A program made the translations under genes and the position numbers. Shown here piece after piece: positions 5,830 to 51,608 of a DNA stretch of 53,046 bases (the stretch's first letter is position 1; each line of letters begins with the position of its first letter). A model generated the notes under the pieces. That model saw only the letters and a program-made list of their open reading frames with translations. It was not told where the DNA came from and made no database searches. This stretch comes from Spirochaetales bacterium (GTDB lineage: Bacteria; Spirochaetota; Spirochaetia; Treponematales; UBA12059), in contig JAFGJV010000056.1 of the NCBI GenBank assembly GCA_016928955.1, positions 1 to 53,046 of the forward strand, read 5' to 3'.

Positions 5830-6279
5830 ATGTCCGCGCCACGGGACCTTCGCGTAAACACCATCCTCGGGACAGACAGCTCGTTTCAGGGCGACCTTGT
5901 CATAGACGGCTACACCCGCGTCGACGGCGAGGTCCGAGGCAGCATCAGGACCACCGGCGAAGTGGTGATCACATCGAGCGCCCGCTGCGAGGCGTCGGTT
6001 ACGGCCAGGTCCGCCATGATAGGCGGGGTGGTCAAGGGCGACGTGTGCGTCACCGAGCGCCTGACCATACTGGACGGCGGCGTCATCGTGGGCAACGTGT
6101 TCGCCCCCCGGCTGGACGCGGACGCCGACATCATCATCCACGGCGACATCGAGGTGTCCGGCTCCACCGAGGGAGCAGAGGAAGCCATGCTGGCCTTTCT
6201 CAAGCGCCATGACTCGGGCTTACGGCCCATGGGCTTTGACCGGAGGCCGGGCGGCTCGGGGGACCGGTGGCAGCGCTAG
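5830..6279 (+). CDS. Bactofilin
   Basis: 149-residue bactofilin (DUF583/CcmA family), a self-polymerising beta-helical cytoskeletal protein. The core from about residue 12 to 115 shows the short repeating beta turns typical of the family (GDLVIDGY, DGEVRGSI, GGVVKGDV, GGVIVGNV), flanked by a short N-terminus and a charged tail. Such proteins localise peptidoglycan enzymes, which fits the M23 gene directly upstream. The ribosome site is weak; an in-frame ATG nine bases upstream is an alternative start. Its end overlaps the GTG start of the next gene by 13 bases. Confidence 0.9.
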   Translation: MSAPRDLRVNTILGTDSSFQGDLVIDGYTRVDGEVRGSIRTTGEVVITSSARCEASVTARSAMIGGVVKGDVCVTERLTILDGGVIVGNVFAPRLDADADIIIHGDIEVSGSTEGAEEAMLAFLKRHDSGLRPMGFDRRPGGSGDRWQR

Positions 6280-6758
6280 ACGGGGCCAACCCGATCACCG
6301 CCGCGTCCGTGGCGGCCATGTCGGGGAAAAAACCGGAACGCAAAAAGGAAGCGCAGAAAGCCAAGCTGTTCGGGACGGCCTTGCGGGAAGCGGAGCGGGC
6401 TGACAGCACGCCCGCCGCTGAAGGCCAGCCGTTTTCCCACGCCGAGGCCGCCGAGCTCCTGGACGCCGTTACGGTGGCTGGGGAACTGCTCAAGCGGGAC
6501 GCGACCACGGACGCCATCAAGGGCTACAAAAAGGCCGTGCGCGATTTTGTGCATTATGTGGTGGAGCGCGCGTACGATGTGGACGAGCACGTGTCGGGCC
6601 GCAGCGTGCTCAAGCGCAAGAAGTTCACCACGGTTACGGTCATAGACGAGAAGCTGGAGCGCCTTGCCGCGGACGTTCTGTCCGCCCAGCGGGACAAGCT
6701 GGACATACTCAGGCGCCTGGACGAGATACACGGACTCCTGGTCGACCTTTTGCGGTAG
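6267..6758 (+). CDS. YaaR family protein (DUF327)
   Basis: 163-residue protein of the YaaR/DUF327 family, all-helical, of unknown biochemical role. The C-terminal two thirds carries the family core, with DAIKGYKKAVRDFVHYVVE near residues 88-106 and VIDEKLERLA near 126-135. The start is GTG, preceded by a GGGGGA stretch and overlapping the bactofilin end by 13 bases, so translation is probably coupled. In Bacillus subtilis yaaR lies close to yaaT; here the next gene is a YaaT homologue, so the linkage is retained. Confidence 0.8.
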   Translation: MAALDGANPITAASVAAMSGKKPERKKEAQKAKLFGTALREAERADSTPAAEGQPFSHAEAAELLDAVTVAGELLKRDATTDAIKGYKKAVRDFVHYVVERAYDVDEHVSGRSVLKRKKFTTVTVIDEKLERLAADVLSAQRDKLDILRRLDEIHGLLVDLLR

Positions 6759-6782
6759 GCCGGCGGGTCGGAAGGGCTACAC

Positions 6783-7712
6783 ATGGACGAGGATCTGTAC
6801 CGCGAGGTACCCGAGGAGGACCTGTCCCACCTCGAGGACGAGCGCGTCGACATACCTGAACACCGTTCCAACCGGGCGGATCTGCCGGATTCGCTGTACC
6901 GGATCAAGGTAGAGCCGTACAACGAAACCTTCCACGCCACGTTTGAGGGCGAACTCAAGGCGGGCGACAAGGTCATGGCCCCGACCCGCTACGGCCGCGA
7001 GCTGTGCACGGTGCTCGGGCACGTGATGCACCCGATGTACGTACGCCCTGAGGACGTGGTGCACATCGAGCGCCTGGCCAGCGCGGCCGACCTCGAACGG
7101 AGGGCGGCCGACGAGGAGAAGGAACGAAAGGCTTTTGCCATCTGCCAGGAGAAGATCAAGGTACGCAACCTGCCCATGAAGCTGGTGTTTGCCCATTACC
7201 TGCCGGACGATTCAAAGGTCCTGTTCTTTTTCTCGGCCGACTCTCGCGTGGACTTCCGCGACCTGGTCAAGGACCTGGTGGCCGTGTTCAAGATGCGCAT
7301 AGAGCTCCGGCAGATAGGCGTTCGCGACGAGGCCCGGGTGGTCGGCGGTTGCGGCGTGTGCGGGCGCGTGCTGTGCTGCAACGGCGTGAACGACAAGCTG
7401 GTGCCGGTATCCATCAAGATGGCCAAGGACCAGAACCTGTCGCTCAATTCGCTGAAGATATCCGGTCCCTGCGGCCGCCTGCTGTGCTGCCTGGCTTACG
7501 AGTACGGCTTCTACAAGGAAGCAAGGCGTTCCATGCCGTCAGAGGGCGTGCGCATACCCTATGACGGCACCGTGCTCAGGGTGCTTGAGGTCAACGTGCC
7601 GGCGGGCCGGCTCAGGCTGTCCGGAGAGGACGGGCGCTATCTGGAAGTGGGAGCCGAGCGCTTCGAGCAACGCGATGGACGATGGGTGCTCTTGGACGAG
7701 GCGGGCAGCTGA
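6783..7712 (+). CDS. PSP1/YaaT (RicT) family protein
   Basis: 309-residue PSP1-domain protein. The domain occupies roughly residues 120-260. Its cysteine signature is intact: Cys190, 193, 198, 199 in GGCGVCGRVLCC, then Cys230, 235, 236 in CGRLLCC. In Bacillus subtilis the homologue RicT is part of an Fe-S-carrying complex that affects RNase Y and developmental signalling; those partners are not in this window. The first 45 residues are acidic and not conserved. GGAAGGG sits six bases before the ATG. It is the last gene of the M23 - bactofilin - YaaR - YaaT cluster, closed by a bidirectional terminator. Confidence 0.9.
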   Translation: MDEDLYREVPEEDLSHLEDERVDIPEHRSNRADLPDSLYRIKVEPYNETFHATFEGELKAGDKVMAPTRYGRELCTVLGHVMHPMYVRPEDVVHIERLASAADLERRAADEEKERKAFAICQEKIKVRNLPMKLVFAHYLPDDSKVLFFFSADSRVDFRDLVKDLVAVFKMRIELRQIGVRDEARVVGGCGVCGRVLCCNGVNDKLVPVSIKMAKDQNLSLNSLKISGPCGRLLCCLAYEYGFYKEARRSMPSEGVRIPYDGTVLRVLEVNVPAGRLRLSGEDGRYLEVGAERFEQRDGRWVLLDEAGS

Positions 7713-7761: not shown

Positions 7762-8787
7762 TCATTCGGTGTAGCCAGTCACTTCCAGCTCGAAAATCAG
7801 GTAGGAATTGGCCGGTATGAGGCCTCCCGCCGCTGACATGGGGCCGTAGCCGTATTCCGGCGGTATGGCCACGCGCCTCTTCTCGCCCTTTTTCATTTCC
7901 AGCAGCACGAGCTCTACGCCCATGATGTTGAACTGCCCGGCGCCCAGCTCGAACTCTATGGGGCCGCCGTGGAAATCCGATTCGTCGAACACCTGGCCGT
8001 TGGGGAGCATGCCCTTGTACGCCAGGTTGACCAGCCAGAAACGCCTGAGGACGGGACCCGAGCCTTCTTCCAGCACTTCCTCCAGGATGCCGTCAGGCCT
8101 CTCCTTGAGGTTTGGCCAGAGGTCCTTGATGGTCGCGATGGCGACTTGGCGTTGTTTGGTCTTGCGCTCGCGGAGAGCCGCCAACGCCGGCTCGTACAGC
8201 CGCTGCCAGTCGGCCTGGGTTGCGCTGAAGGCCTGGGCGGCCGCGCCCACGCGCTCGATGCGCACGGACTCTATGCGGTCGCCTTCTTCCAGGGCTTTCA
8301 CCGCGTTCATGCCGCTTACCACGTGGCCGAACACGCTGTACGAGCCGTCCAGGCTGGACGCTATGTCGTCTGAGGCGCCAAGGGTGATGTAGAACTGGCT
8401 ACCGTTGTAGTCTGGGGCGGCGTTGGCCATGCCCAGGGTGCCGGGCCTGTCATGTGTAAGGTCTGGATGGATCTCGTTGGGGAAGTAGTAGCCCGCGTCG
8501 CCGGTGCCGTCGCCCGCGGGGTCGCCGCCCTGCACGATAAAGTCGGGCATCACGCGGTGGAACGACAGACCGTCGTAGAAGGGAGTGCCCTCTGCGGCGT
8601 CCAGGGTGCCCTCCGCCAGGCCGACAAAGTTGGTCACCGTCAGCGGGGCCTTTTCGTATTCCAGCCAGGCCACTACGGGACCCTTGGTGGTTTCTATACG
8701 AGCGTAGAGGCCGTCGGGAAGGCGCGAGCAGGACAGAGCGATCAGGGCAAGGGCCACCGCTAAGGCGGCCGGGACGATGCGTCGCAT
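7762..8787 (-). CDS. Cyclophilin-FKBP two-domain PPIase lipoprotein
   Basis: Dual peptidyl-prolyl isomerase, 341 residues, probably anchored in the envelope. The start at 8787 is chosen because GGAGG lies five bases upstream and a lipoprotein signal follows (Cys20 in ALSCS); a longer frame to 8880 has no ribosome site. The cyclophilin domain (about 27-180) has FHRVMPDFIVQGGD at 76-89, including the catalytic Arg78, and GMANAAPDYNGSQFY. A helical linker (185-235) leads to an FKBP domain (about 245-341) with GVELVLLEMKKGEKR and IPPEYGYG. Proteins joining both immunophilin families are rare but known from a few microbes, including spirochaetes. It should assist folding of exported proteins. Confidence 0.9.
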   Translation of the reverse strand: MRRIVPAALAVALALIALSCSRLPDGLYARIETTKGPVVAWLEYEKAPLTVTNFVGLAEGTLDAAEGTPFYDGLSFHRVMPDFIVQGGDPAGDGTGDAGYYFPNEIHPDLTHDRPGTLGMANAAPDYNGSQFYITLGASDDIASSLDGSYSVFGHVVSGMNAVKALEEGDRIESVRIERVGAAAQAFSATQADWQRLYEPALAALRERKTKQRQVAIATIKDLWPNLKERPDGILEEVLEEGSGPVLRRFWLVNLAYKGMLPNGQVFDESDFHGGPIEFELGAGQFNIMGVELVLLEMKKGEKRRVAIPPEYGYGPMSAAGGLIPANSYLIFELEVTGYTE

Positions 8788-8858
8788 ACGTTCCTCCGGG
8801 AACAGGGAATCGGTCGGTGCCGGCCTGCGGCAAGGGCGCCTGGCCAGACAGCGAACGT

Positions 8859-8888
8859 AGGCTAGCACGGAAGGGCTCATGCCGGCAA
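8859..8888 (-). promoter_or_regulatory. Candidate promoter for the PPIase gene
   Basis: Minus strand -35 TTGCCG (8888-8883), 18-base spacer, -10 TAGCCT (8864-8859), about 70 bases before the ATG at 8787. The -10 is weak. Confidence 0.35.
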
Positions 8889-8975
8889 GGATGGACTACT
8901 CCGGCCGCCCGTACCCGGTGCGTATGGCGCCCGTTGCCCAAGGCGGGCTATACTGTCCGCGCAAGGGAGGGCGGT

Positions 8976-9467
8976 ATGGCTGAAAGTGGCTACAGGCGGC
9001 CGAGCTGGGACGAGTATTTTATGGAAGTGTGCGAGGCCATAGCCAAGCGGGCCACCTGCGACCGCGGCAGGTCGGGCTGCGTGATAGCCCGCGACCACCA
9101 GATCCTGGCCACCGGTTACGTGGGCGCGCCTGCGGGCCTGCCCCATTGCGACGACGTGGGCCACCAGATCAAGCAGCTGACCCACGAGGACGGCACGGTG
9201 ACCAGGCACTGCGTCCGTACGGTCCACGCCGAGCAGAACGCCATCTGCCAGGCTGCCCGGCGGGGCATAGCCATAGAGGGGGCGACGCTGTACTGCCGGA
9301 TGACGCCCTGCCGCACCTGCGCCATGATGATCATCAACTGCGGCATCGTGCGCGTGGTGTGCCAGCGTAAATACCACGACGGCGCCGAGAGCGAGGCCAT
9401 GTTCGACAAGGTGGGCATATCCGTGGAATACGTCGAGAACGCCATGGAGACCTACGACAACCAGTAA
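8976..9467 (+). CDS. dCMP deaminase family protein (ComEB-like)
   Basis: Zinc-dependent deoxycytidylate deaminase of 163 residues, converting dCMP to dUMP for thymidylate synthesis. Zinc ligands are His84 (with catalytic Glu86) in VHAEQNAI and Cys112/Cys115 in MTPCRTC. The GYVGAPAG segment (47-54) matches the substrate loop of this family. The start at 8976 has GGGAGG five bases upstream; a longer frame to 8817 overlaps the divergent PPIase gene's leader and is rejected. It is followed after 45 bases by the YmdB-like gene. Confidence 0.88.
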   Translation: MAESGYRRPSWDEYFMEVCEAIAKRATCDRGRSGCVIARDHQILATGYVGAPAGLPHCDDVGHQIKQLTHEDGTVTRHCVRTVHAEQNAICQAARRGIAIEGATLYCRMTPCRTCAMMIINCGIVRVVCQRKYHDGAESEAMFDKVGISVEYVENAMETYDNQ

Positions 9468-9512: not shown

Positions 9513-10334
9513 GTGTCCATCAGAATACTGTACCTGGGCGAGATCGTCGGCAAGGCCGGCGTCTTTGCCGTCAAGAAACAACTGCCCGGACTCAGGGAAC
9601 GCTACCGTCCCGACCTGGTCGTGGCCAGCGGCAACGGCGTGACCGGTGGATCGGGCATAGGCAAGGCGCATTCGGTATACCTGCGCAAGCTCGGCATAGA
9701 CGTGGTGACCACCGGCGAGGGTGCCTTTTACAAAAAAGACATCGTGGAAGCCTTTCCCGCCGAGCCCTGGATGCTCAGGCCGGCCAACCATCCGTCCGGA
9801 GTGCCCGGACGGGGCTTTAGGGTGTACAAGGCGGGCAAGGGAAGGGTGGCGGTGGTGCAGCTCCTGGGGCAGGCGGGTTTCAACCGCGTGCACCTGGACA
9901 ACCCCTTTGTGGTCCTGGACGAGGTCATCCAGCGCCTGCGAGGAGAATGCGACGCCGTGGTGGTGGAATTCCGGGCTCCCACCACCGCCGAGAAACAGTC
10001 AATGTTCCACCACGCCAACGGTAAGGTAGCCGCCGTCATAGGGTCGTACGCGCGGACGCTCACCGCGGACGGCGCGGTAAGCACCCTGGGCACGGCGTAC
10101 ATAACCGACGCGGGCATGACCGGCGCCTCGGATTCCGTGCGCGGCTTTGACCCCGAGCCGGTTATACGGGAATATCTGACGGGCATACCGTCCTGGGACC
10201 GGGAGGGCGGATCGCGCCCAGAGGTCCAGGGTTGCCTGATCGATATAGAAGAAAACGGCAAGGCCACGGGTTTGGAAACGCTGAGAATCCCCTGCAAGGA
10301 GTTGTTCCATGACGGAACGGGCCATAGTGCTTAA
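9513..10334 (+). CDS. YmdB-family protein with all metal ligands replaced
   Basis: 273-residue member of the YmdB (TIGR00282) metallophosphoesterase family by overall similarity: GEIVGKAG at the N-terminus, RPANHPSGVPG (89-99), LDNPF, and TAYITDAGMTGASDSV (194-209). In active YmdB the metals are held by an Asp, a Glu-Asn pair, an Asn-His pair, a His in FHAE, and two His in THTH. Here these positions read Glu10, Asn41-Gly42, Glu69-Gly70, Arg154 and Tyr179/Arg181, so every ligand is changed. I infer a catalytically dead homologue that may bind nucleotide or protein. The start is GTG with no clear Shine-Dalgarno. Its last 26 bases overlap the RseC-like gene. Confidence 0.8.
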   Translation: MSIRILYLGEIVGKAGVFAVKKQLPGLRERYRPDLVVASGNGVTGGSGIGKAHSVYLRKLGIDVVTTGEGAFYKKDIVEAFPAEPWMLRPANHPSGVPGRGFRVYKAGKGRVAVVQLLGQAGFNRVHLDNPFVVLDEVIQRLRGECDAVVVEFRAPTTAEKQSMFHHANGKVAAVIGSYARTLTADGAVSTLGTAYITDAGMTGASDSVRGFDPEPVIREYLTGIPSWDREGGSRPEVQGCLIDIEENGKATGLETLRIPCKELFHDGTGHSA

Positions 10335-10704
10335 GGTGGAAGGCCGCACGGCCGTGGTGGGCATACAGGCCAGTGAGGGCTGCGCGCATTGCAGCCACGG
10401 CGGGGACTGCTCTCTGGCGGGAGCGCGCATAGACGCCGACCTGCCAGAAGGTTTTGAGGGCAAGCCGGGCGACGAGGTGACGCTCGTGCTGCCGTCCGGC
10501 GTGCGCGCGGCGGGTTTGCTCTGGCTACTCGTCGTGCCGCTGGCCCTGTTCGCCGCCGGATACGCCGCGGGCGACGCGTGGGCCGGGTCGGAAGCGGCGG
10601 CGGCCGGGCTGGGACTGGCCGGCTTGGCCCTTGGCCTTGGGGCGGCCGCCCTGGCCGTGAGGCGTGGCAAGGCGGCCAGCCGCCCGAGGGTGTTGCCGCT
10701 CTGA
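10309..10704 (+). CDS. RseC/SoxR-reducing-system-like membrane protein
   Basis: 131-residue protein of the RseC (SoxR-reducing) family. Residues 1-60 form the soluble N-terminal domain with cysteines Cys25, Cys28 and Cys34 in CAHCSHGGDC, the family signature. Two transmembrane helices follow (about 67-89 and 97-117) and a short basic tail. Homologues usually sit with rnf electron-transport genes; none is visible here, so the role is open. AAGGAG lies seven bases before the ATG, inside the YmdB-like gene, so the two are coupled. Confidence 0.8.
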   Translation: MTERAIVLKVEGRTAVVGIQASEGCAHCSHGGDCSLAGARIDADLPEGFEGKPGDEVTLVLPSGVRAAGLLWLLVVPLALFAAGYAAGDAWAGSEAAAAGLGLAGLALGLGAAALAVRRGKAASRPRVLPL

Positions 10705-44345: not shown

Positions 44346-44558
44346 TGCCAGAGCCGATGGTCGGCGAAATGCCCCTCGCGCCAAGAGTATCAAAAATAAT
44401 TCGAAAAACCACATATATGACGGATAAAAATGTCGAAACATGTTATATTACAGTTGACTATCGGTGTCCTGGTGACACACACCGTGCTTTTCTCGGCAAT
44501 ATGGCCGATAGTAGATAGGGGGTGGAGTCTGTCCGCTCGTATCGTCTGGGGGGTATCC

Positions 44559-47500
44559 ATGCGCTCGAAATTTTTCGTCGTCTTTGCCATCATACTGGCG
44601 GCTGTCCTGCCTCTGGCCGGACAGGAAACTGGAGCGGACACAGGCTCCGGGTCTGGAGACGAGGCGGGCACTGAAGCCCCCCTGCCCGAGGAACAGCCGG
44701 CGGAACAGCCGACGCAGGGCGGCGGCTCGGGAGACGGCTGGGCAACGGCCGAAGGCCTGGACAACTGGCGCTACGACTACGATATATCGGGCTTCAAGCC
44801 GGGCACCTACAATATCCTGGTGCGGGCCACGGACTCCGCGGGCAACGTGTCCTTTGGCGGCCCGTTCAACATCGTCGTGGACCCGGAATCAGACTACCCC
44901 GTGGTGGGCATAGCCAATCCCCTGCCGTTCATGCGCGCCGGCGCCGACCTCAACGTGGTGGGCACCTGCGTTGACGACGACAGCGTGGACTACGTGGAAG
45001 TGCGGGTGGACGACGGCGAGTGGGTACGCGCGGAGGGCTCCGACTACTGGTCGTACTACCTCAAGACCAAGGACTTGGCGGACGGCCTCCACCTGCTGAA
45101 AGCGCGTGGCGTGGACTCGTTCGGCGTGGCCGGCAACGAGGTACAGGTTCCCTTCCACCTGGACAGGACCAAGCCCCTCCACGAGGTGGCCGAGCCGGCC
45201 TTTGGCACCCTAGTGTCGGGCAAGCTGTCGCTGTCGGGCACCGTGTACGACGCCAACGGGCTGTCGTCCGTGGCCTGGTCCCAGGACGGAAGCGCCTGGC
45301 TCCCGCTCAAGTACTCGCTGGACAAGAAAACCAACACGGCCGGCTTCAGCGTGGCCATTGATACCAGGAAACTGGAGGACGGTCCCCAGGTGCTCTGGCT
45401 CAGGAGCACGGACGGCGTGGGCTCTGAAGGCGTGGCCGTCTTCCTGTATTTTGTCGACAATACCCAGCCCGAGCTGGCCGTGCTGTCTCCGGCGCCGGAG
45501 TCGGCGGTCAACGGCCGCTACACCATCACCGGCCGCGTGTACGACACGGTGGGCGTCAAGTCGCTGGAGTGGACCTACGGCAAGGAAAGCGGCCAGGTCG
45601 AGCTCCTGCCGGGCAACCCCTATTTTTCCGTGTCCTTCCAGGCCCCTCCGCAGGCGGGCAAGGCCACCGTTCTCTTCAGCACCACCGACATAACCGGCAA
45701 CGTGACCGAGGCTAACGTGAGCTACCAGGTGGACCCGCGGACCGATCTCCCCCGCGTAACTCTGGGGCGGCCGGGGCCGGGCAGCCAGGCCTTTGAGCTC
45801 CTGGAAGTGTCGGGCGGAGCCAGGGACGACGACGGAGTGGCGTCAGTCGAGTGGCGCGTTGACAACGGCCAGGCCGCGTCCATAACCACGGACGGAGCCT
45901 TTTCCTTCTCCGTGGGCGGCCTTGAGGCCGGCGCCCATACCCTGTACGTGCGCGCCCTGGACGTGAACGGCCTGGCCGGCCAGTGGCTTGAGCTGCCGTT
46001 CAGCTACACTGCCGGGCCGCCGCTTGTAAACATCACCGGCGCGTCCGACTCGGGCGGCCAGCGCTCCTTTGCCCCCGGCCTGGTTTTGTCCACCATGGAC
46101 GGCAAGGCCGTGCTGTCCGGCACCGTCACGGCCATGAACGCCCTGACCGAACTCACCTGGTCCGTCAACGGTTCGGAGCCGCAGAAGCTGGCCCCGGGCA
46201 AAACCCCCGGCAGCTTTGACTTCAGCCTGAACCTGCCTGCAAGCCTGCCCTACGGCGTGCTGAACCTGACCATCAGCGCCAAGGACGCCGCCGGCCAGGA
46301 GGGGCTGTTCAAGGCTCCTCTGTACGCGGTGAATTACAGCCGCCCGCGCGCCGGCCCCCTTATAGACCTTGCCGGCGCCGGTGATTCGGGCACCATTGCC
46401 ATATCCGCCGACGCGCCGTTATGGGGAGCCTTTGTGGCCCCCTATCCGGACGAGGCCCTGGCCGGCGTTGAATTGGTGCCGGCCAGCGCGCTGGTAGCCG
46501 CGTCGTTTGAAGGCTCCCTGATCAAGGTGAGCCAGCTGGCCCAAGGGGCGACCCCTCCCACCACGGTGGTTGCGCTTACCACGCGGGGGCACCGCTTTGA
46601 GGCCGGTCCCTTTGTCTTCCTGACCGACGCCGAGCCGCCCCAGGTGAAGATAGCCGAGCCGGCCTTTGGGTCCTGGCACAAGTCCGGTTTTACCGTCAAG
46701 GCACAGGCCGCGGATGGCGACGCCGTTGCGGCGGTGGAGTACAGCGTGAACGGAGCGGCCTGGCAGCCCATGTCGGCCGCCGGAGGCGCGTACTCGGCTC
46801 CCGTGGACATCGCTGGCCTGTCCGGGCCCGTTCACCTGGCCGTGCGCGCCGTGGACAAGGCGGGCAACCAGGGACAGGCGGCCACCGCCGTCATGGTGGA
46901 CACAGAGGCTCCCGCGCCCCAGCTGATCCTGCCCCTGCCCGGCGACGCGTCCATAGGCCAGCGCCTGTACGCTTTCCGGCCCGGCGAGTCCGCCCAGTCC
47001 ACGGCCTCCGTGGAAGTGGGCCGGGGGGCCGTGTTCGAGACCCTGCCATACGCCCCGCTTGTCATGTTCAGCGCCGACGCGTCCGGCGGGCCCCTGCTCA
47101 TACGCGTGACCGACAAGGCCGGCAACATAGCGGAACTCAAGCCCGCCGAGGCCCTGGCCGCCGAGCGGGTAGGGAGCGCGCCAGCGGCCCTTGATGAACT
47201 GAAAAGCGGCGGGCCCGGAGCAGGCTCCGGCGCGTCAGCAAGCTGGACAGGCGCGGATGGCACGGGCCAGCTGGCCTGGACCGCCCCCTTTGTGGACGCG
47301 GCCGATCCGGCCTTGTTCCCGGATGCGGCCCCGCTCCGCCTGTCCGGCGCGGCGAGCCTCGGCGCCGTGTTCACCGGCGTGTCGCCCGATCCAAAAAAAC
47401 CCGTGGCCTTCTGGGGCTTTGACCCCGCGGCCCTGACCCAAGCCCTGGCCTTGAAGGCGTCCAAGACGCCCGGCGCCTGGGACGCGTCCATCAAGCTGCC

Positions 47501-50500
47501 CGTCCAGGCTGACGGACGAGCCAGCGTGTGGGTCAGCGTGCAGGATGCGGACGGGACCCAGCGCTATACCAAGATCGATTTTGACAACGACAATACAGCC
47601 CCTGATATCCAGGTGCTTGCTCCTTCGGGATCCCAGCCTGGCGCCTTTACCCTGGTGGTCAGGGCCAAGGACGCCAGGGGCATAGCGTCGCTCAGCTGGG
47701 AGGCCGGCGGCCAGAAAGGCCAGTTTGACCTTATTCCGGGCACGGGAGACGGAGCCGCAGACTTCAGCTTCCCGGCCAAGGGCGCTTCCTTGAACGTGGT
47801 GGTGCGGGCCGTGGACGGCTCGGGGCTTTCCGCCCAAACCACGGCCACCGTGGCCTACGACGCGGCGGCCGACACCCCGGCCTGCCAGTTCCTTGGTCCC
47901 CTGGACGGCGTGGACCGCGCGTCGGACGGGCCCATCCTGGCCTACGCCAAGGACGACGACGGCGTGGCCTCCGTGTCCCTGTCCGTGGACGGCGTGGCTA
48001 GCGGCGCCGAGGGCCCCGGGCCCGTGTTCCTGGTGGACCCCGGCGCCCTGCCCTCAGGCCGCCGTTCCCTGAGCCTGGTGGCCGTGGACACAGGCGGCGT
48101 GCCGTCAGTCAAGGCGGCCGCCGGCTTTACCAAACTGGGACCCGGCCCTGTAGCGTCGTTCAAGACGCTCCAGTCGGGCAAGGCAGAAGCCGTGCCCTAC
48201 CAGCCAGGTTTGGCGTACGCGATAGACGGTGCCGCCACGCTCGCGGTATCGGTGGCAGCGCCCAACGGCCTTGCGTCCGCCGAATACAGCGTGAACGGCG
48301 CCGAGTGGGCCAAGCTGGCGGTACCGGCCAAACCGGACGCCGACGGAGCCTGGCCGCTGTCCATACCGCTGGCCGGAACCCTGCCTTTTGACCGCGTGCT
48401 GGTGTCGCTCAGATTGACTGACGCCACCGGCTCCCAGGGTAGCGCCTCCGCCGTGATATACCGCGTGGCCCCGCCGCCGGTCGCCGAGGTTTTGGACAAA
48501 GAAGGCGTGTACCTGAGCGACAGGCGCCTGGGCGACGACGGCTCGGTGCTCCTTGCGCCCGGGGAAAGCCTGGGCGCCCTGTGGAACGGCCGGCCCATAG
48601 ACACGGTCAGCCTGGTACCCGCCGTGCCCTTTGTGGAAGTCGGCCACGACGCTGGCTCAATTACCGTGACGGCCACTGGCGAGGGCCTGGCCCAGCCTGC
48701 CGTCATCAGGGTGCGCACCGTGGACGGCGATACCTTCAATTCCATACCCCTGAGCTTCCGGTCGGACGCGGCCGGGCCTGAATTGTCGCTCAAAGGGCTT
48801 GCCGCCCAGGCCTGGGTAGGCTCGTCCATAACCCTGGCCGGCACCGCGGCGGACCCCAACGGCGTGGCGTCTGTGGAATGGTCCCTGGACGCCGGCCTGA
48901 CCTGGACGGCCCTGCCCACGCCCGCGGGCGCCCTGGCCGCCACGCGGGAGTTTTCCCAGACCGTGGGCCTGGACGCCCCCGACGGCGCGATCGAGCTCCT
49001 TGTCCGCGCCTCGGACGGCGCTGGCAGGCAGACCTTTGCGTCGCTTCCCTTATGGAAGGACACGGCCGCGCCCGTGGCGGCCCTTGCTGCGCCCGGAGCG
49101 GGCCACCTAGTCAACGGAACGGTGTTGCTGTCAGGCGTGGCCCAGGACTCAGGCGACCTCATAAGCGTTGAGTACGCTCCCGACGGCTCGTCCTGGCAGC
49201 CGGTGACGGCGCAGGCCCTGGGCTCCGGCCCGGCCTGGCCGGACGGCAAGGGAGCCGAAACGCCCGAGCACACGGGCCGCTGGAGCTTTGAGCTCCTTGT
49301 GGACCTGGCCACCCTCCAGGCCGACCCCTCCGCCCTGGCCTTCCGCCTGCGCGACAAGTCGGGCAACGAGACCGTATACAAGCCCCTGGCCGGCGACGAG
49401 CCGGCCTTTGCCGTGGACATAGAGGCTGACAAGCCGCGCGCCCAGGTGCAGGTCCCCGCTGAGAACGACGTGATGCGTTCCGACTTCGTGGTGTCAGGCA
49501 TGGCCTTTGACGACGACGGCGTGGCCGAGATCCACTGGCGAGTGGACGGCGGCGAGTGGACCCGCGTGGACGGCGCCAACGCCTTCTCCGTGCCCTTCAA
49601 GCTGGCCGACACGGCAGACAACGAGCACCTGTTCGAGGCATACGCCGTGGACCTCAACGGCGTCCGGGGCGACACGGCCGAGCGGCGCTTCCGCGTCAGC
49701 CGCGAGGAGCCCGTGGGCAGGCTCACCGGCCCTGACGTGTCAGTGACCAACCGGGGCGTCATCGTCCTTACCGGGGACGCATCCGACGCGAACGACATCA
49801 AGGACGTGTGGGTGTCCTTTGACAACGGCAACACATACAACCGAGCCACGGGCACCACGGCCTGGACCTACACCCTGGACACCCGCGTCCTCCAGGACGG
49901 CGTGCACAGCGTGTACCTCAAGCTGGTTGACGGCTACGACACCCCGGGCTTTGCCGCCGGCCTTATATCCGTGGACAACACCGCCCCCGCGCTGGAGCTG
50001 ACCGGCCCCGCGGACGGCGAGGAATTCACCGGAAGCATGCTTTTGGGCGGGCGCTCGTCAGACGCCGTGCTGGTCAAGTCGATTGTGGCCGAACTCACGC
50101 CCATAGGGGCGCAGGCCGCCGTCAGGACCCTCCCGGTGACCGTGGCCGACGTGTTCAGCCTGGCCGTTGACCTTTCAGGCCTGGCCCCAGGCTGGTACAA
50201 CATCAAGGTGAGCGCCGCCGACGGGGCGGACAACCGCAGCTACCAGTCGCGCAACATAGTCGTCCGCGAGAGCAAGAAGGCGGAGCTGGCCGAGCTCATC
50301 TTCCCGGCCCACGGCGAGCGCCTCTCCGGCCGCTTTACCCTGGACGGCCGCGTGGTGGCGGAAACCCTGCCGGACAGCGCCGAGGTGTTCCTTGGCGGCG
50401 CCAGCTTTGGCACGGTGGAGCTGAACGACGAAGGCTACTTCTCCCTGCGCGTTGAGCCGGGCCAGGTGACGGACGGCGAGCTTGTGTTCACGGTACGGGC

Positions 50501-51608
50501 CACGGGCTCAGGCGGGGCGGCGCTCGCGTCCGAACCGCGCACCGTGATATACCAGCGGGAAGGCCCCTGGGCGGACATAGACTCCCTGGATACCGGCGAC
50601 TTTGTGACCGGGCGGCCCTTCCTGACCGGAGCGGCGGGATGGGACACCGCGCCCGCGGACAAGGAAGACAAGGAAGCATGGGCCGCGTACCAGAAACTCC
50701 TCAAGGAGAGGAAACCCGTCAAGGTGGAGATCAGCCGGGACAACGGCCGCAGTTTCCAGGAAGCCAAAGGCTCGGATGAGTTCCGCTACCGCCTGGAAAC
50801 CCAGGAGTATCCCAACGGCGAGCTCAGGCTGATCGTACGCGTCACCTACGCCAACGGCCAGACGGCCGTGCGCAAGCGCATCGTCACCCTGGACACCAAG
50901 CCGGCCCAGGTGGCCATAGTCAAGCCCGGCGAGAACGGGCGCTTCAACGGCAGCATAGCGATAGAAGGCACGGCCTACGACGAGAACGGCCTTCAGTCCG
51001 TGGACGTGATCGTCCGCTCGGGCGACAAGGCGTCCTACGAGGTGCCGGGCTTTATCCAGGGCTCATACCTGGACATGCATCTTCTGGGCGCCACGCGCTG
51101 GGAAGCCGGTCTTGGCCTGTCGTTCTTTGACGACAACGTGCGGCTCCAGGCCAACTTTGGCCAGGGCTTTGACGCACAGCCCAGCTGGGACAACCTTCTG
51201 GGCTTTGCGGACGCGAGCACACCGGCTTCAGAGCTGTCGCGCTTTACGGGCTTTGTGCTCGGGTTCAAGCTCCTGGCCAACCTTGCGTACATACCCTTTG
51301 GCTACTACTTTGGACCGGACTGGGACTTCTTCTCCATGTCGTTTGCCATGGGAGCCACGTTCACGTACTTCTCCCAGTCCAGCGACCTGAGCCTTTTGTT
51401 CACGCCGCCCGACGGCAAGTACATGGTCCTGTCCGGCGTGGTGGTCCAGTGGGAGTTCGCCAAGTTCACCCTGCCCGGCACCTTCCCCAAATCCCTGGGG
51501 CTGTACCTGGAGGGCGGGCTGGTGTTCATACCCTCGGAGGCGTCGCTCAGCCTGGCCGAGTTCATGCGCGCCACCGTGGCCCTGGGCTTACGCATAGGCC
51601 TGTTCTAA
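44559..51608 (+). CDS. Giant Ig-repeat protein with C-terminal outer-membrane barrel
   Basis: 2349-residue secreted protein. A signal peptide (1-20, ending PLAG) is followed by an acidic Gly/Glu/Pro-rich linker (21-60). About 15 or more bacterial Ig-like modules follow, each marked by a variant of D-x-x-G-V-x-S-V-E-W-x-V-D-G, for example DDDGVASVEWRVD, DPNGVASVEWSLD, DDDGVAEIHWRVD. The last 182 residues (from about 2168) change abruptly to a membrane-strand pattern and end in ALGLRIGLF with terminal Phe, as outer-membrane barrels do. I infer a barrel-anchored Ig stalk, outside or in the periplasm. GGGGGG lies five bases before the ATG; a frame back to 44430 is rejected. A terminator follows. 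Confidence 0.85.
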   Translation: MRSKFFVVFAIILAAVLPLAGQETGADTGSGSGDEAGTEAPLPEEQPAEQPTQGGGSGDGWATAEGLDNWRYDYDISGFKPGTYNILVRATDSAGNVSFGGPFNIVVDPESDYPVVGIANPLPFMRAGADLNVVGTCVDDDSVDYVEVRVDDGEWVRAEGSDYWSYYLKTKDLADGLHLLKARGVDSFGVAGNEVQVPFHLDRTKPLHEVAEPAFGTLVSGKLSLSGTVYDANGLSSVAWSQDGSAWLPLKYSLDKKTNTAGFSVAIDTRKLEDGPQVLWLRSTDGVGSEGVAVFLYFVDNTQPELAVLSPAPESAVNGRYTITGRVYDTVGVKSLEWTYGKESGQVELLPGNPYFSVSFQAPPQAGKATVLFSTTDITGNVTEANVSYQVDPRTDLPRVTLGRPGPGSQAFELLEVSGGARDDDGVASVEWRVDNGQAASITTDGAFSFSVGGLEAGAHTLYVRALDVNGLAGQWLELPFSYTAGPPLVNITGASDSGGQRSFAPGLVLSTMDGKAVLSGTVTAMNALTELTWSVNGSEPQKLAPGKTPGSFDFSLNLPASLPYGVLNLTISAKDAAGQEGLFKAPLYAVNYSRPRAGPLIDLAGAGDSGTIAISADAPLWGAFVAPYPDEALAGVELVPASALVAASFEGSLIKVSQLAQGATPPTTVVALTTRGHRFEAGPFVFLTDAEPPQVKIAEPAFGSWHKSGFTVKAQAADGDAVAAVEYSVNGAAWQPMSAAGGAYSAPVDIAGLSGPVHLAVRAVDKAGNQGQAATAVMVDTEAPAPQLILPLPGDASIGQRLYAFRPGESAQSTASVEVGRGAVFETLPYAPLVMFSADASGGPLLIRVTDKAGNIAELKPAEALAAERVGSAPAALDELKSGGPGAGSGASASWTGADGTGQLAWTAPFVDAADPALFPDAAPLRLSGAASLGAVFTGVSPDPKKPVAFWGFDPAALTQALALKASKTPGAWDASIKLPVQADGRASVWVSVQDADGTQRYTKIDFDNDNTAPDIQVLAPSGSQPGAFTLVVRAKDARGIASLSWEAGGQKGQFDLIPGTGDGAADFSFPAKGASLNVVVRAVDGSGLSAQTTATVAYDAAADTPACQFLGPLDGVDRASDGPILAYAKDDDGVASVSLSVDGVASGAEGPGPVFLVDPGALPSGRRSLSLVAVDTGGVPSVKAAAGFTKLGPGPVASFKTLQSGKAEAVPYQPGLAYAIDGAATLAVSVAAPNGLASAEYSVNGAEWAKLAVPAKPDADGAWPLSIPLAGTLPFDRVLVSLRLTDATGSQGSASAVIYRVAPPPVAEVLDKEGVYLSDRRLGDDGSVLLAPGESLGALWNGRPIDTVSLVPAVPFVEVGHDAGSITVTATGEGLAQPAVIRVRTVDGDTFNSIPLSFRSDAAGPELSLKGLAAQAWVGSSITLAGTAADPNGVASVEWSLDAGLTWTALPTPAGALAATREFSQTVGLDAPDGAIELLVRASDGAGRQTFASLPLWKDTAAPVAALAAPGAGHLVNGTVLLSGVAQDSGDLISVEYAPDGSSWQPVTAQALGSGPAWPDGKGAETPEHTGRWSFELLVDLATLQADPSALAFRLRDKSGNETVYKPLAGDEPAFAVDIEADKPRAQVQVPAENDVMRSDFVVSGMAFDDDGVAEIHWRVDGGEWTRVDGANAFSVPFKLADTADNEHLFEAYAVDLNGVRGDTAERRFRVSREEPVGRLTGPDVSVTNRGVIVLTGDASDANDIKDVWVSFDNGNTYNRATGTTAWTYTLDTRVLQDGVHSVYLKLVDGYDTPGFAAGLISVDNTAPALELTGPADGEEFTGSMLLGGRSSDAVLVKSIVAELTPIGAQAAVRTLPVTVADVFSLAVDLSGLAPGWYNIKVSAADGADNRSYQSRNIVVRESKKAELAELIFPAHGERLSGRFTLDGRVVAETLPDSAEVFLGGASFGTVELNDEGYFSLRVEPGQVTDGELVFTVRATGSGGAALASEPRTVIYQREGPWADIDSLDTGDFVTGRPFLTGAAGWDTAPADKEDKEAWAAYQKLLKERKPVKVEISRDNGRSFQEAKGSDEFRYRLETQEYPNGELRLIVRVTYANGQTAVRKRIVTLDTKPAQVAIVKPGENGRFNGSIAIEGTAYDENGLQSVDVIVRSGDKASYEVPGFIQGSYLDMHLLGATRWEAGLGLSFFDDNVRLQANFGQGFDAQPSWDNLLGFADASTPASELSRFTGFVLGFKLLANLAYIPFGYYFGPDWDFFSMSFAMGATFTYFSQSSDLSLLFTPPDGKYMVLSGVVVQWEFAKFTLPGTFPKSLGLYLEGGLVFIPSEASLSLAEFMRATVALGLRIGLF

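Follow-up and report, generated by a model that had tools for sequence, protein, structure and literature searches.

The window, by which we mean the whole 53,046-nucleotide stretch of spirochaete DNA analysed in this study, encodes an altered paralogue of YmdB, here called YmdB2, in which all the positions that hold the two metals and carry out catalysis in YmdB are changed. YmdB2 almost certainly belongs to a distinct subfamily that is under selection. The three features expected of a pseudoenzyme were found together, namely the loss of catalytic residues, purifying selection and, within the same cell, a paralogue that looks active. We therefore consider it reasonably probable that YmdB2 is a YmdB pseudoenzyme that works without catalysis, in which case its most likely partner would be the active YmdB. 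No description of an inactive YmdB subfamily, or of a pseudoenzyme in the YmdB family, was found in the open-access papers searched; against that literature this putative pseudoenzyme branch appears to be new, and the function of YmdB2 has apparently never been studied before.

The altered YmdB and its genomic surroundings

The ymdB2 gene (9513..10334, forward strand) starts with GTG and encodes a protein of 273 aa in an uninterrupted frame. The Pfam family PF13277 (YmdB) spans the whole protein (247 bits against a gathering score of 27; E 1.9e-73), and the motifs RPANHPSG, LDNPF and TAYITDAGMTG, from which the sequence-only reading had concluded that the YmdB fold was kept, are all present. 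The AlphaFold model (pLDDT 87.8, pTM 0.86) had its best structural match in B. subtilis YmdB 4b2o (Z 36.6 over 254 residues, rmsd 3.5, 32% identity), and the nearest solved structures were four known YmdB-type proteins (Z 33.6-36.6).

The metal site of YmdB is formed by Asp8, Glu39, Asn40, Asn67, His150, His175 and His177, and His68 is catalytic (PMC10406935). Alignment with the sequences of the solved YmdB proteins demonstrated that seven of these seven ligands are replaced in YmdB2 (D8>E10, E39>N41, N40>G42, N67>E69, H150>R154, H175>Y179 and H177>R181), and the catalytic histidine has given way to glycine (H68>G70). Two-metal phosphodiesterase activity is thus very probably absent from the window protein. 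The sequence-only reading had held that every catalytic position is changed, and its residue list was exact for all eight positions of the window protein; across the wider clade, however, H150 and H175 are mostly kept, and the full set of changes is confined to the window's family. Two further markers of inactivity were dropped. The TIGR00282 model gave 190.6 bits for YmdB2 and 225 bits for the intact paralogue of the same genome, so the NCBIfam trusted cut-off of 254 does not discriminate here, since the intact protein falls below it as well. Asp71 of the catalytic dyad is not conserved in the intact spirochaete copies either.

Upstream of ymdB2 lies a gene for a ComEB-type deoxycytidylate deaminase (8817..9467, forward strand), which is found repeatedly at this place in the window's family and in family f4. 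Between ricT and comEB, a gene in the opposite orientation (7762-8880, reverse strand) encodes a 372-aa fusion of a cyclophilin and an FKBP domain, both peptidyl-prolyl isomerases, and it occupies the same place in relatives. Just upstream, a tight cluster (5830-7712, forward strand) encodes a bactofilin, a DUF327 (YaaR-like) protein and RicT/YaaT. RicT is a partner of RNase Y in B. subtilis, and hence a gene for an RNase Y helper lies about 1.8 kb from ymdB2 in the window, as it does in many relatives. Elsewhere in the window, a protein of 2392 aa that contains many bacterial Ig-like domains (44430-51608, forward strand) is probably a large surface protein, and tandem repeats of about 245 bp occur within an InlB-like/List_Bact repeat protein at the contig edge (52246-53046).

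Distribution, ancestry and co-retention of the two copies

Matches were found in 50 of 59 relatives and in 334 of the 395 genomes sampled from the class, mostly as two copies each, which ruled out an oddity of a single genome. The named records among the best matches were nearly all labelled as spirochaetes (Treponema, Gracilinema, Rectinema, Marispirochaeta and many MAGs), with a few unclassified MAGs, and no relatives were found in viral contigs. The sequence set comprised 128 distinct altered and 32 intact proteins (28 from loci and 4 from the PDB). In a tree built by a quick method after the eight diagnostic columns had been taken out, the altered copies formed one group (SH-aLRT 99), which covers Spirochaetia, Borrelia among them, and a sister class. 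Families f47, f60 and f73 of another class in the phylum make up the deepest branch of this group, and the ymdB duplication is therefore probably older than Spirochaetia.

Of the 128 members of the altered clade, 125 have Glu at position 8, 127 have Arg or Lys at 177, 124 have Glu or Asp at 67 and 117 have Gly or Ser at 40, and His68 is retained by a single member. His150 is retained in 108 of 128 members and His175 in 76. Ligand-capable residues at all four of positions 39, 67, 150 and 175 remain in 73 members, which could still bind one metal. It follows from these counts that the ancestor had lost one metal site and the catalytic histidine; the second site stayed possible at that stage and was then lost repeatedly in several lineages. 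At positions 150 and 175, ten members of the window's family have R-Y, and other lineages have H-G, S-G or Y-Y. Total loss (R-Y-R) is a trait of the window's family and half loss a trait of the whole clade. The sequence-only reading had named a related clade with the same substitutions as what would support a new subfamily; a conserved subfamily does exist, but it shares only part of the changes seen in the window.

The clade also has conserved residues of its own away from the metal ligands (K21, T44, G50, H53, K59 and A159; R202 in 92% of members, the window protein being an exception with M202), which suggests that YmdB2 kept a job of its own. Moreover, Ka/Ks between close altered pairs, estimated by the Nei-Gojobori method, was 0.03-0.16, with values of 0.07-0.12 among the R-Y-R relatives of the window protein and 0.14 in Borrelia. 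Such low values indicate that the protein is in use, in agreement with the earlier statement that the gene looks selected rather than decaying.

Borrelia keeps an altered YmdB despite a genome of about 1 Mb. In Borrelia-type genomes, the copy is very divergent (ENFENDGR) and lies between lspA and murA (at 1498-2316 in one such chromosome, L170). Judged from the gene order lspA-?-murA, the tags would be BB_0470/BB_0471, and a literature search on these returned nothing useful.

The sequence-only reading had raised the question of a second, active YmdB elsewhere in the genome, and an intact copy is indeed present on contig C41 (7525-8307). It keeps all eight residues and lies directly downstream of RNase Y, which is the arrangement seen in Bacillus. 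In a hand count of Spirochaetia genomes that are at least 90% complete, most had both copies, about a dozen had one and about 55 had none. Among the Treponemataceae genomes listed, 10 had both copies, at least 20 had neither and none had exactly one. RNase Y was kept in all Treponemataceae genomes tested; its presence in Treponema without ymdB ruled out joint loss with RNase Y as the cause of the missing genes. The RNase Y tree separated the joint loss in G032 (L239; a genome of T. pallidum size, 1,139,633 bp) from the loss in the other Treponema group. At least two Treponema lineages thus apparently lost both YmdB copies jointly but kept RNase Y.

Exceptions to co-loss were observed. One genome (G089) retains the altered copy alone, its RNase Y locus being devoid of ymdB, and two (G048 and G094) have only the intact copy. 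Two further genomes appear to hold the altered copy alone (G116 and G403), but they probably reflect assembly gaps, because RNase Y is missing from both and part of the intact copy is present in G116 where a contig breaks off. Brachyspira and other classes have the intact copy alone. The co-loss pattern is a correlation drawn from two or three events; co-retention is nevertheless the main reason why we prefer, tentatively, to regard YmdB2 as a regulatory partner of the active YmdB.

The RseC neighbour

Directly downstream of ymdB2 lies a gene (10309..10704, forward strand) for a 131-aa membrane protein of the RseC/MucC family. Its product matches PF04246 (RseC_MucC) with 65 bits (gathering score 24.4; E 6.5e-18) and, as read from its sequence, has the two hydrophobic stretches expected of two transmembrane helices and a Cx2Cx5C motif (C25, C28 and C34), the motif being defined as in PMC11729352. 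The neighbour, first described as an RseC-like membrane cysteine protein, is accordingly a true RseC. A genome-wide search returned this gene as the only match, and the same genome carries a full rnfCDGEAB operon on contig C9. In E. coli, the same three cysteines of RseC can hold an Fe-S cluster that is sensitive to oxygen, and the protein needs at least two of these cysteines to function (PMC11729352). In C. ljungdahlii, RseC is a regulator or accessory of RNF (PMC9124969).

The open frame of ymdB2 and its 26-bp overlap with rseC (10309..10334), both noted from the sequence alone, were confirmed. The likely ribosome-binding site of rseC, AAGGAG (10296..10301, forward strand), lies inside ymdB2, 7 nt before the rseC ATG; the Cys-Lys-Glu codons of the YmdB2 tail (TGC AAG GAG) would thus serve also as the rseC ribosome site. 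A C[K/E]E motif occurs in the tails of 34 of 90 YmdB2 proteins with RseC downstream and of 0 of 38 without it.

Across the altered clade, the next gene downstream, on the same strand, is rseC in 90 of the 126 loci that could be assessed, compared with 0 of 27 intact loci (Fisher test 6e-13, a value that is overstated because the sequences compared are related). Among 88 pairs with a resolvable start, the two genes overlap in 80, and an SD-like sequence precedes rseC in 80. Translation of ymdB2 and rseC is in all likelihood coupled, and the operon link is real and old within Spirochaetia. Across 70 genomes, RseC and RnfC were both present in 49, both absent in 13 and discordant in 8, and strong RnfC was found in 49 of the 51 genomes with RseC. 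In five genomes (G065, G084, G104, G070 and G095), rseC sits beside rnfC instead. Borrelia and families f11 and f19 keep YmdB2 and lack RseC and strong RnfC, and one Treponema genome (G035) has RseC and RNF and lacks YmdB2. The pairing pointed out by the sequence-only reading is therefore conserved but not obligatory, as RseC follows RNF and Borrelia does without both.

Proposed mechanism, alternatives and relation to known proteins

The following scheme would account for these observations. An ancient duplication of spirochaete ymdB would have left the original beside RNase Y, and the copy would have lost its two-metal centre. As the residues show, the first metal site (D8>E, H177>R/K) was lost throughout the clade, as was the catalytic H68, and several lineages, that of the window among them, later lost the second site too. 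A salt bridge between the near-invariant Glu10 and Arg/Lys181 may fill the place of the lost metal and keep the pocket folded, and in the window protein Arg154 may also be among the residues that replace metals. YmdB2 might then assemble with the active YmdB, or compete for or hold its ligand. In most lineages, it would be translated together with RseC, the iron-sulphur protein that assists the RNF redox pump, and its amount would in this way be tied to RNF. The parts of this scheme differ in strength. That YmdB2 acts on or with the active YmdB is a tentative proposal, direct contact with RseC is unlikely, and more doubtful still is a redox-linked switch by which YmdB2, produced in parallel with RseC, would govern the active YmdB from the RNase Y locus. 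If such a switch existed, it would link the redox state of the membrane to phosphodiester signalling or RNA turnover.

Among the alternatives, YmdB2 could bind a ligand or RNA independently and have no link to the function of YmdB or RseC, its place in the operon being a mere convenience. The clade-specific conservation of H53, K59 and R202 and the persistence of the gene in Borrelia without RseC are what one would expect of such a binder, but co-loss with the intact copy and retention of the rseC overlap over the whole class are not, and we give this explanation about one chance in five. An enzyme with one metal and a new reaction, whose metal the window's family would have lost too or replaced with arginines, is slightly less probable. 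The 73 of 128 members that keep ligand-capable residues at positions 39, 67, 150 and 175 fit this idea, and there is a precedent in the lasso-peptide epimerase MslH, which has a YmdB-like fold and binds a single Ca(II) through the counterparts of E39, N67, H150 and H175 (PMC10406935). However, MslH retains the equivalent of the catalytic His68, which the altered clade has lost in all but one member, and H150 and H175 were lost several times independently (R-Y, H-G, S-G and Y-Y) while selection was not relaxed, which could not have happened if the metal were essential.

A little less probable again is an accessory factor of RseC or RNF, in which case YmdB2 would join RseC from the cytosol and serve in the assembly or regulation of the redox pump. 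The rseC overlap conserved in most of the 90 of 126 loci, the way RseC tracks RnfC across the 70 genomes and the full RNF operon of the window genome, whose single RseC is the neighbour of ymdB2, all argue for it; the Treponema genome with RseC and RNF alone, the five genomes with rseC beside rnfC, and families f11 and f19 argue against it, and YmdB2 cannot be a factor for RNF or RseC only, because Borrelia retains it without either. A decaying pseudogene or a sequencing or assembly artefact, which might be suspected because the window copy has lost every catalytic residue, was refuted by frames that are open throughout, by Ka/Ks of 0.03-0.16 and by occurrence in hundreds of genomes.

A YmdB pseudoenzyme would have several consequences. 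B. subtilis YmdB controls the choice between motility and biofilm fates, and its natural substrate is unknown (PMC6123443); the change from a cyclic-nucleotide phosphodiesterase to a binding protein proposed by the sequence-only reading is a hypothesis. YmdB2 would be a phylum-level version of this protein that may bind without cutting and is kept even in the reduced genomes of Borrelia, and it offers a ready tool to trap the YmdB substrate or to find YmdB partners. Its locus provides a genetic handle on RseC/RNF regulation in spirochaetes. Caution is also advised, as spirochaete genes annotated as YmdB metallophosphoesterases may be inactive.

With respect to known systems, the window RseC has in common with those of E. 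coli and C. ljungdahlii the N-terminal Cx2Cx5C motif, two hydrophobic helices and an RNF-linked presence. Whereas known RseC/MucC genes occur with rnfC or with rpoE-rseAB, rseC of spirochaetes usually overlaps the gene of a YmdB paralogue. YmdB2 of the window shares its fold and whole-length homology with the YmdB/TIGR00282 enzymes (B. subtilis 4B2O, DR1281 1T70, TTHA0625 2CV9 and MPN349 1T71), and it retains their structural glycines and RPAN/NPF motifs. Unlike them, it has all eight metal and catalytic positions changed, does not adjoin RNase Y and has conserved motifs of its own (GxGxxHxxYLRKLG, LLGQxGFxRxH and usually DAGRTG). It resembles MslH in having a YmdB-like fold, a lost second metal and a changed function (PMC10406935), but MslH still has the counterparts of His68 and Asp8 and carries additional domains, whereas YmdB2 has lost both residues and has no added domain. 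Finally, as in pseudophosphatases and pseudoenzymes generally, a probably inactive paralogue is maintained under selection beside an active one.
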